From: a virus
IMG/VR virus record: IMGVR_UViG_3300042301_001255
Location: 1 to 26,392 of that record
DNA: 26,392 nucleotides
Reading direction: 5' to 3' (one strand)
Under the pieces are notes generated by a model, which ran no database searches, was not told the origin of the DNA, and worked only from the letters and a program-made list of their open reading frames with translations. Positions 20,872-23,193 of the stretch are shown one piece after another. Each line of letters opens with the position of its first letter. Position 1 is the first letter of the stretch. Both the position numbers and the translations under genes were made by a program.

Positions 20872-21042
20872 TTATACCTCTGTTTCTGTTCTTGATTCTA
20901 GGATTGCTGCCAGGCTTATCGCGCACCGAGCTACCTCTGCTGCCAAATTGCTGGCTGCCTCGTAGTTGTTGGATTGGGCGGCCTTGTGAACCTCTTGCAT
21001 CAGGCGATTAATCATTAGCAAATATTGGGAGTAGTCAATCAT
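20872..21042 (-). CDS. Small helical protein, 56 residues
   Basis: 56 residues, from the ATG at 21042 to TAA at 20872. Reads MIDYSQYLLMINRLMQEV at the start, then A/N-rich helices (NYEAASNLAAEVARCAI) and a polar end. Its ATG lies in the preceding stop (ATGA) and its stop is four bases before the exonuclease ATG, so it is part of the operon. Predicted fully alpha-helical; no membrane or Cys cluster. Some phages carry short helical proteins of this type, but I do not know a function. Confidence 0.65.
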   Translation of the reverse strand: MIDYSQYLLMINRLMQEVHKAAQSNNYEAASNLAAEVARCAISLAAILESRTETEV

Positions 21043-21287
21043 TTTTTGACCTCCTTCATAGCTGCCATTTTGGGTGAGCTCTTATAGATGTAGCGTTTCC
21101 ACTTGTGCGTTACGTTATCTGGATCGCACTCGTAGAAGTCGGTAATGCGCCAGCCGCTGCTGCGGAGCATATGGATGTAGTGCGCTAGGCGCGTGATGCC
21201 GTACTGCTCGATTACGTCCCAGCTGGTAACACCTTTGCCACGGCGGCGCTTGAGTTCTGATTGGATAATTTCGAATTGTGTAGTCAT
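21039..21287 (-). CDS. Helix-turn-helix protein
   Basis: 82 residues with the start at 21287, chosen because GAGGT precedes it and the upstream residues (an earlier ATG at 21335) are poor. TSWDVIEQYGITRLAHYIHMLRSSGWRI (about 21-48) reads as a helix-turn-helix of the HTH_39 type found in short phage proteins, followed by a charged strand (YECDPDNVTHKWKRYIY). It probably binds DNA and may regulate the operon or modulate recombination. The ATG overlaps the stop of the preceding gene by four bases. No target is visible with confidence. Confidence 0.68.
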   Translation of the reverse strand: MTTQFEIIQSELKRRRGKGVTSWDVIEQYGITRLAHYIHMLRSSGWRITDFYECDPDNVTHKWKRYIYKSSPKMAAMKEVKK

Positions 21288-22405: not shown

Positions 22406-22554
22406 TACAGGCCTCCATTCTTGATAAAAGCTACTGCTTGTTTTTTCTTGTAAGCAGTAAAAATAACTTTATCGTTATCGTCCAGCACAACCCATTCGCA
22501 TGAGTCTGTGCCAGCCGAGTGCCAATGCTTGACTACGCGCTTTTGGATTCTCAT
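22405..22554 (-). CDS. Small protein, 49 residues
   Basis: 49 residues from ATG 22554 to TAA 22405, with the stop overlapping the recombinase start (TAATG). Reads MRIQKRVVKHWHSAGTDSCE then WVVLDDNDKVIFTAYKKKQA, probably a small alpha/beta domain with a beta hairpin. The ATG overlaps the stop of the first gene of the operon by four bases, so coupled translation is likely. Preceded by GAGGT at a fair distance. Not recognised; no motif that names a function. Confidence 0.62.
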   Translation of the reverse strand: MRIQKRVVKHWHSAGTDSCEWVVLDDNDKVIFTAYKKKQAVAFIKNGGL

Positions 22555-22766
22555 ACAGTCACCTCATCGCGTGTGTTGGTGAACTCAAAGAAGTAGTACT
22601 TAACTTGATTGATGATTTGGTTTGCCTGCTCTGTGCGGCCCATTGCAATCAACTCCTGGGCATCTGACAGCAGGCCAGCTACATACATATTGATGTTGTA
22701 CTGGGATTTGAAATGACGCTCTAGCGCCTCTGCTGAACAACCTAACATTTTAATATCTGTACTCAT
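22551..22766 (-). CDS. First gene of the leftward operon, small helical protein
   Basis: 71 residues with the start at 22766, chosen because GAGGAG (22775-22780 on the opposite strand) precedes it; a longer reading from 22844 would cover the promoter. Reads MSTDIKMLGCSAEALERHFK then NINMYVAGLLSDAQELIAMG and NQIINQVKYYFFEFTNTRDE. All-helical, no membrane segment. The phrase 'AGLLSDAQELI' has a known ring from small phage proteins of Caudovirales early regions, but I cannot name a function. Its position first after the promoter suggests an early-expressed product. Confidence 0.6.
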   Translation of the reverse strand: MSTDIKMLGCSAEALERHFKSQYNINMYVAGLLSDAQELIAMGRTEQANQIINQVKYYFFEFTNTRDEVTV

Positions 22767-22795
22767 GGTGTTAACTCCTCTATCTGGGTGGTTAA

Positions 22796-22809
22796 AAGCG
22801 ATATCGCTT
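22796..22809. promoter_or_regulatory. Perfect 14-bp palindrome at the leftward transcription start
   Basis: AAGCGATATCGCTT reads the same on both strands. It lies 8 bases downstream of the leftward -10 box, right where transcription would begin, and about 30 bases before the first leftward start codon. That is a natural place for a repressor operator. The protein that would bind is not identified; the ribbon-helix-helix product at 23020 and the helix-turn-helix product at 21039 are candidates. Confidence 0.55.
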
Positions 22810-22816
22810 AGGTGTG

Positions 22817-22844
22817 ACTTTACCACAGCTGCAATACCCGTCAA
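22817..22844 (-). promoter_or_regulatory. Leftward promoter
   Basis: On the minus strand TTGACG (22844-22839) and TAAAGT (22822-22817) are 16 bases apart. The -35 matches five of six consensus bases and the -10 four of six. Start would be near 22810. It would drive the ten-gene operon from 22766 to 18961. The -35 overlaps a copy of the CGGGTA word (22835-22840), which gives a ready means of repression. Confidence 0.55.
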
Positions 22845-22868
22845 GAACTATATGTAGCTAAAACAACA

Positions 22869-22899
22869 CTATTTCATAGGTGTTTACCCTATGAGTTAG
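22869..22899. promoter_or_regulatory. 31-bp imperfect dyad in the control region
   Basis: Two 12-base arms, 22869-22880 and 22888-22899, are inverted repeats matching at 10 of 12 positions around the seven bases TGTTTAC. The inner arms, TCATAGG/CCTATGA, match at all seven. The size (about three helical turns) suits a repressor dimer site, and also suits a crossover site for a small serine recombinase, whose gene lies in the adjacent operon. Sequence alone does not decide. Confidence 0.45.
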
Positions 22900-22941
22900 G
22901 CTACGGGTAGTTTTCCTGTATGCTCACAGATATCGGGTAGC

Positions 22942-22969
22942 TTGACACTATTCAGCTCAGTCCTATCTC
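22942..22969 (+). promoter_or_regulatory. Rightward early promoter
   Basis: A perfect TTGACA at 22942-22947, followed after 16 bases by TATCTC (22964-22969), a weak -10. Start would be near 22976, about 45 bases before the ATG at 23020. It would drive the rightward early operon (ribbon-helix-helix, RusA, methyltransferase-like and further genes). It is bracketed by CGGGTAGC and GCTACCCG, so regulation is likely. The weak -10 may mean that an activator is used. Confidence 0.5.
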
Positions 22970-23019
22970 GTCAGGCACGACTAAAAAGACCTGCTACCCG
23001 GCCAACTAAAAGGATCAAT

Positions 23020-23193
23020 ATGTCAGAATTAAAGCCTTTCCTGGTGCGTCTGCGGCCAGATGTGCGTGAGCTGCTAGTGCAGGCAGCACAAGAGCGCAAG
23101 AAACCCATAGCCAGCGTTATCAATGATGAGCTGCGCGTTGCCCTTGGCAAGACTGGAAACCTTAACCAGCGCCTTACGCAGCTGATCGGATGA
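23020..23193 (+). CDS. Ribbon-helix-helix regulator (Arc/CopG-like)
   Basis: 57 residues with the start at 23020, chosen because AAAAGGA (23007-23013) precedes it; an alternative TTG start at 22942 would be the -35 box. The N-terminal strand LKPFLVRLRPDVRELL and the two helices (DVRELLVQAAQERKKP, ASVINDELRVALG) fit the ribbon-helix-helix fold, in which the strand inserts in the major groove and dimers bind short repeats such as those just upstream. It is the first gene of the rightward arm and probably regulates its own promoter. The stop overlaps the RusA start (ATGA). Confidence 0.72.
   Translation: MSELKPFLVRLRPDVRELLVQAAQERKKPIASVINDELRVALGKTGNLNQRLTQLIG

Follow-up and report, generated by a model that had tools for sequence, protein, structure and literature searches.

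A divergent phage control region whose rightward mRNA probably opens with a recurrent structured RNA element

The DNA analysed here, hereafter the window, is the whole of a 26,392-base virus record (IMGVR_UViG_3300042301_001255), in which two genes diverge from a 253-base gap. Leftwards, the first gene (22551–22766, minus strand) encodes a 71-aa protein with a three-helix predicted model (pLDDT 85), and genes for a serine recombinase and an 82-aa winged-helix protein of the HTH_39 type (21039–21287, minus strand) lie further on; rightwards, the first gene (23020–23193, plus strand) encodes a 57-aa protein of ribbon-helix-helix (RHH) type, with a gene for a RusA-like resolvase beyond it. The initial annotation had described the gap as a compact genetic switch, and every string that it named is found in the window. 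A leftward promoter, TTGACG-16-TAAAGT, spans 22817–22844 on the minus strand (TTGACG at 22844–22839, TAAAGT at 22822–22817), and rightward hexamers run from TTGACA at 22942 over a 16-base spacer to TATCTC at 22964; a promoter scan of the region reported the leftward pair and not the rightward one. The perfect 14-bp palindrome AAGCGATATCGCTT occupies 22796–22809 at the leftward start, an imperfect 31-bp dyad whose arms match at 10 of 12 positions lies at 22869–22899, and CGGGTA occurs at 22904 and 22934 on the plus strand and at 22835–22840 and 22995–23000 on the minus strand. Among 2000 dinucleotide shuffles of the 253-base gap, none held CGGGTA four or more times, 72 held some 6-mer at least four times and 34 held a perfect palindrome of at least 14 bp.

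Relatives of the 57-aa protein were found at 36 loci in viral contigs and relatives of the 71-aa protein at 47; Methylophilales phage MEP301, whose upstream layout differs, was the one match among annotated phages. The main comparison set comprises 35 loci with the divergent RHH layout, which overlap in part and give 27 distinct upstream sequences; it leaves out L008 and L011, which lie at contig ends, and L002, L030, L032, L033 and L035–L037, where the RHH gene is not the first gene of such a region. A further set of 20 loci without the RHH gene is a hand-picked part of the 71-aa relatives. We take these phages to come from fresh water, judging by IMG sample numbers and the look of the relatives. 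A promoter similar to the leftward one is present in 25 of the 35 loci. As a separate observation, Betaproteobacteria-1 RNA (RF02932) occurs in the phage loci L055 (397–520), L056, L062, L063 and L064, all of which have 71-aa gene relatives, and in four of the five it lies upstream of that gene on the same strand.

The hexamer GATATC stands at both inferred starts. One copy lies at the rightward start (22929–22934) and a second inside the 14-bp palindrome at the leftward start (22800–22805), and each is present in 35 of 35 loci; all 35 contain exactly two GATATC within 420 bases, and all 35 carry the left GCGATATC. GATATC is absent from the 20 loci without this RHH gene, and at L002 and L035–L037, which are other locus types, the RHH gene is present with no GATATC upstream. 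We propose that the RHH protein would bind GATATC, with the palindrome as a putative operator, and repress both promoters. Its RHH fold rests on weak matches: the 57-aa protein scored E 0.12 against the Arc profile, below the cut-off, Arc was also its best match among solved chains (E 0.47), 5 of 17 family members match Arc and 3 match RHH_1, all weakly, and the predicted structure is poor (pLDDT 69). At relatives lacking the RHH gene (L043, L047–L050, L052, L054 and L066), the first rightward gene encodes, by eye, a different small helix-turn-helix-like protein; there the dyad is kept and GATATC is absent. Elsewhere in the window, a 255-base gap (2003–2257) ahead of the gene at 2258 contains a terminator-like GC hairpin with a T run (about 2027–2053) and a GATATC at 2147.

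Two further sites may form an operator pair. The left operator, CTATATGTAG (22848–22857), adjoins the leftward −35 box, and the right operator, CTACGGGTAG (22901–22910), lies 53 bp from it. Palindromes of the form CTANNNNTAG stand at these positions 40, 53 or 62–63 bases apart, depending on the locus, and in another clade both operators read CAATATGTTG, 43 apart; the spacings would correspond to about 4, 5 or 6 helical turns. By the strict pattern, L027, L031, L034, L042 and L114 have only one such site near the promoters. The candidate binder is the 82-aa protein, which matches HTH_39 (PF14090) with 32.6 bits against a cut-off of 21.3; HTH_39 is encoded in 7 of 7 RHH-type records and in 0 of 2 others. 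In one clade CTANNNNTAG becomes CAANNNNTTG, largely in step with the putative recognition helix, which is TRLAH at all 26 CTA-type loci and TRLAK at all 7 CAA-type loci where it could be located (the helix pattern was not found in L010, L027, L030, L032 and L033), a correlation among related sequences that share ancestry. Because three loci are exceptions (L030, L033 and L330 have CAA-type sites together with TRLAH and a different following stretch), the match between HTH_39 and operator is suggestive only. We infer that the 82-aa protein may bind both operators, probably through looping or cooperative contacts. The likely regulators are the 57-residue protein and the 82-residue HTH_39 protein, the two that the initial annotation had proposed for binding tests, and the region offers two testable regulator–operator pairs.

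At the centre of the 31-bp dyad, TAGGTGTTTACCCTA (22877–22891) is a probable regulator site. With up to 2 mismatches the 15-mer occurs in 41 distinct contexts in 1.78 Mb, compared with 0–13 for 20 shuffled motifs, and 150 genomes hold 4 exact sites against 0 for a reversed control. Ten of 70 dyad matches in the genome collection bear names that we presume to belong to Burkholderiales; nine of these ten have no ORF of at least 50 aa over the site, and in the tenth, L262, an 80-codon ORF covers it. The dyad 15-mer may be a host-type regulator site, and these counts are suggestive only. The literature searched, which was short of most subscription papers, held no relevant paper on the dyad strings. 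Exact or one-mismatch copies of the 15-mer TAGGGTAAACACCTA are shared by unrelated phages and by some intergenic stretches of bacteria, examples being window 22877–22891, L166, L077 and L058.

On the rightward side the comparison points away from the promoter first assigned. The initial annotation had taken TTGACA-16-TATCTC for that promoter and the CGGGTA copies for a shared operator word, and the strings are there, the fourfold CGGGTA beyond what shuffling produced. The hexamer pair is nevertheless intact in only 14 of the 35 related loci, and CGGGTA is absent from 12 of them; an RNA helix is conserved instead. TTGACA falls mostly inside the invariant core of a structured RNA, whose TGACA is unchanged in copies far from any divergent promoter, and TATCTC falls in the variable apical part of that RNA. 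The four CGGGTA are different things: two are strands of the RNA helix, one is half of the palindrome CTACGGGTAG and one touches the leftward −35 box. The 8-base inverted pair flanking the supposed promoter does exist (CGGGTAGC/GCTACCCG), not as an operator but as the closing RNA helix, and it covaries as one. We therefore regard the earlier reading as very improbable. Alignment of related phages, which had been proposed as a check, recovered a conserved layout of promoters and operators, with the CGGGTA word not conserved. Because TGTATG[CA]T followed by GATATC is kept in 35 of 35 divergent RHH loci, the likely rightward −10 is (TG)TATGCT (22917–22924, plus strand; TATGCT at 22919–22924), 11–12 nt before GATATC, with GATATC as the likely start. 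A −35 box is not apparent upstream of 22919–22924, as would fit an activated promoter.

The RNA element, of ~67–70 nt, lies at 22930–23004 on the plus strand and would open the inferred rightward transcript, taking up its first ~70 nt. It is the sole match in the window to the RNA model R1 (64.6 bits, E 1.8e-18). Closing helix P1 pairs 22934–22941 with 22993–23000, and inside it lie the two halves of the core, UGACACUAUUCAGC (22943–22956), which holds most of TTGACA, and CUAAAAAGAC (22981–22990), both identified by pattern matches and alignment. Between clades the P1 strands change on both sides (for example, CGGATAG/CTATCCG and CGGGTGG/CCACCCG), whereas the segments TGACACTATTCAGC and CTAAAAAGAC stay unchanged. 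In an alignment of 54 distinct, less similar sequences chosen from 85 usable ones, two-sided changes occur at 12 of 12 modelled pairs, 83.6% of cells pair compared with 53.0% after shuffling, and covariation reaches 0.764 compared with 0.219 shuffled and at most 0.209 slid. An inner helix of two pairs is paired in all cells while its pair type changes. Folded as a single sequence, the window RNA does not stand out (z −1.08 and −1.97). No match was returned when the core was changed at U20, C24 or G26 (numbered as in the alignment, with free partners); the invariance of the core is partly built into the search pattern, and change was tested at these three positions only. Among 98 instances there are 45 apical forms and 47 P1 forms, with identical apical sequences found on different closing helices. 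Sequence comparison, then, predicts an RNA closed by a helix that covaries freely, with an invariant internal loop of 24 nt and an apical hairpin that can be exchanged.

The two-half core pattern matched at least 119 stretches of viral contigs, with 94 distinct forms among the loci examined. In 30 whole records, many of them chosen for carrying the RNA, strong copies were found in 25, a single copy in 24 and two in one. A ribosome-site-like word with ATG and an ORF of at least 50 aa lies 12–60 nt downstream of 66 of 95 RNA instances; the opposite strand gives 1 of 95 and random positions give 28 of 475; the distance to the start codon has its mode at 28–32 nt, and upstream stop codons often lie 14–19 nt before the core. 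This strict sense orientation, and an excess of G-T over A-C among the P1 pairs (41 and 17, with 490 Watson-Crick pairs, in a best-register search that scored G-T and A-C alike), argue against a DNA hairpin serving as a replication or recombination site, a reading that would suit the presence of one copy per genome, frequently close to replication-type genes, and that we find hardly credible. By eye, the genes downstream encode RHH proteins, RusA-like proteins, long DNA polymerase- or helicase-like ORFs, and lipoprotein-like and Cys-rich small proteins; by rough ORF calls, up to 15 co-directional genes or more precede the RNA in some records. At L028, L029, L031, L034 and L038 the same promoter is present, but the ribosome site follows directly on GATATC and the RNA element is missing. 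Since the RNA may be present in or absent from the leader and precedes varied genes, it appears to be a removable mRNA-leader module, not tied to one gene.

The window RNA matched none of the Rfam 15 covariance models at E up to 10, and a relative of the RNA gave only a chance miRNA match. The exact core pattern had no match in the genome collection, and blastn against cultured phages returned nothing for the window element and chance-level pieces only for two variants. No relevant paper on the RNA core strings was found in the literature searched, short of most subscription papers, so that novelty in print is not proven. These comparisons indicate that the element is a new family, unlisted in Rfam, that recurs across many otherwise different phages. 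Host chromosomal relatives were sought with R1 in 399 genomes of one order and rejected, the two weak matches, both of 25 bits and with E values per genome of about 5e-4 and 8e-4, being at about chance level. One 25-bit match in a bacterial genome (L364, 1501–1607) keeps TGACACAATTCA and ACTAAAAAG and may be chance. The different leader of L027 did no better than shuffles.

A second RNA can stand in the same place. At L030, L032 and L033 the left palindrome is kept and the leader differs, reading GGGYGAAAGCGGATGCT...GCGAGTAGCCC. The second pattern matched 67 viral stretches, and its inner helix covaries: pair 1 is paired in 36 of 36 with four pair types and pair 2 in 30 of 36, after 4 of 40 middles had been dropped for a different 3′ part. 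Rfam gave chance matches only. At L330 the second RNA lies directly before an RHH-like start, both exact patterns occur together in two loci, and the hybrids L121, L154 and L165 join the outer module of the second RNA to the core of the first. The form GAAAGCGGATGCT...GCGAGTAGCCC, for example at L030 (5541–5620), can fill the leader of the same RHH operon. This second unlisted family (GAAAGCGGAUGCU...GCGAGUAGCCC) can replace the first before the same gene.

What the RNA does may be sought among several known kinds. The HK022 put RNA is a structured phage RNA of ~70 nt in early transcripts (PMC9378689), and the window RNA resembles putL in length and in its inferred place at the head of an early transcript. 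It is nonetheless improbable that the window RNA is a put-like antiterminator, acting on RNA polymerase leaving the early promoter: put occurs twice per genome, once per early transcript, and forms two stem-loops (PMC9378689), whereas the RNA described here has a single strong copy in 24 of the 25 records that contain it, a single closing helix with a large internal loop and, elsewhere, a position behind as many as 15 or more co-directional genes by rough gene calls. Structured leader RNAs and small ribozymes in Rfam likewise combine an invariant loop core with covarying helices, and no family matches here. For a self-cleaving ribozyme that cuts polycistronic mRNA, a conserved internal loop between two free helices, a sense intergenic position and diverse downstream genes would all be suitable; we consider it quite unlikely, given that no Rfam ribozyme matched (known classes being excluded through Rfam alone) and that a processing site would rarely occur just once per genome. 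Single copies among unrelated neighbour genes, and apical sequences shared by different closing helices, would also suit a phage RNA that is embedded in mRNA and acts in trans (as decoy, immunity or anti-defence RNA), with the apical hairpin setting specificity. That reading is doubtful: the 28–32-nt mode to the start codon fits a cis leader as well, and a promoter or terminator of its own lacks support so far. The reading we tentatively favour, plausible if short of probable, is that the RNA is not a sensor for the downstream gene and would be a module bound by one conserved factor, most likely the host's, during mRNA synthesis, affecting the fate of the mRNA. A bolder proposal, possible and somewhat unlikely, is a new functional class of phage RNA, either a ribozyme that cleaves itself or an RNA that targets a conserved host factor in trans, present once per genome in many otherwise different, presumably freshwater, phages.

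Together, these comparisons show a conserved layout, with back-to-back promoter regions, GATATC at the inferred start of each, an operator pair flanking the conserved dyad and a structured sense RNA on the rightward side. The lambda CI/Cro and P22 Arc/Mnt regions also have divergent promoters, paired operators and small DNA-binding proteins, one of them of Arc type; the window region is alike in these respects and differs in having no HTH_3 protein, in pairing an RHH with an HTH_39 protein, in its leader RNA and in GATATC at both starts. No HTH_3 match above cut-off was found in 9 records (the window record being a fragment), in agreement with the earlier remark that a CI/Cro-like pair is missing. 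Of the compact switch, the divergent control region and control at both promoters stand, while the rightward promoter and the CGGGTA operator word do not. The region is probably the divergent early control region of a phage group that we take to be freshwater, with two regulators and a rightward mRNA that opens with a new RNA family. In a phage leader, then, a hexamer that looks like a promoter can belong to an RNA structure. A core of 24 unchanging nucleotides with strongly covarying helices, found in more than 100 viral stretches and outside Rfam, points to an interaction in which these phages have no room for change, and the RNA is therefore a direct biochemical target, for cleavage assays and host-factor pull-down.
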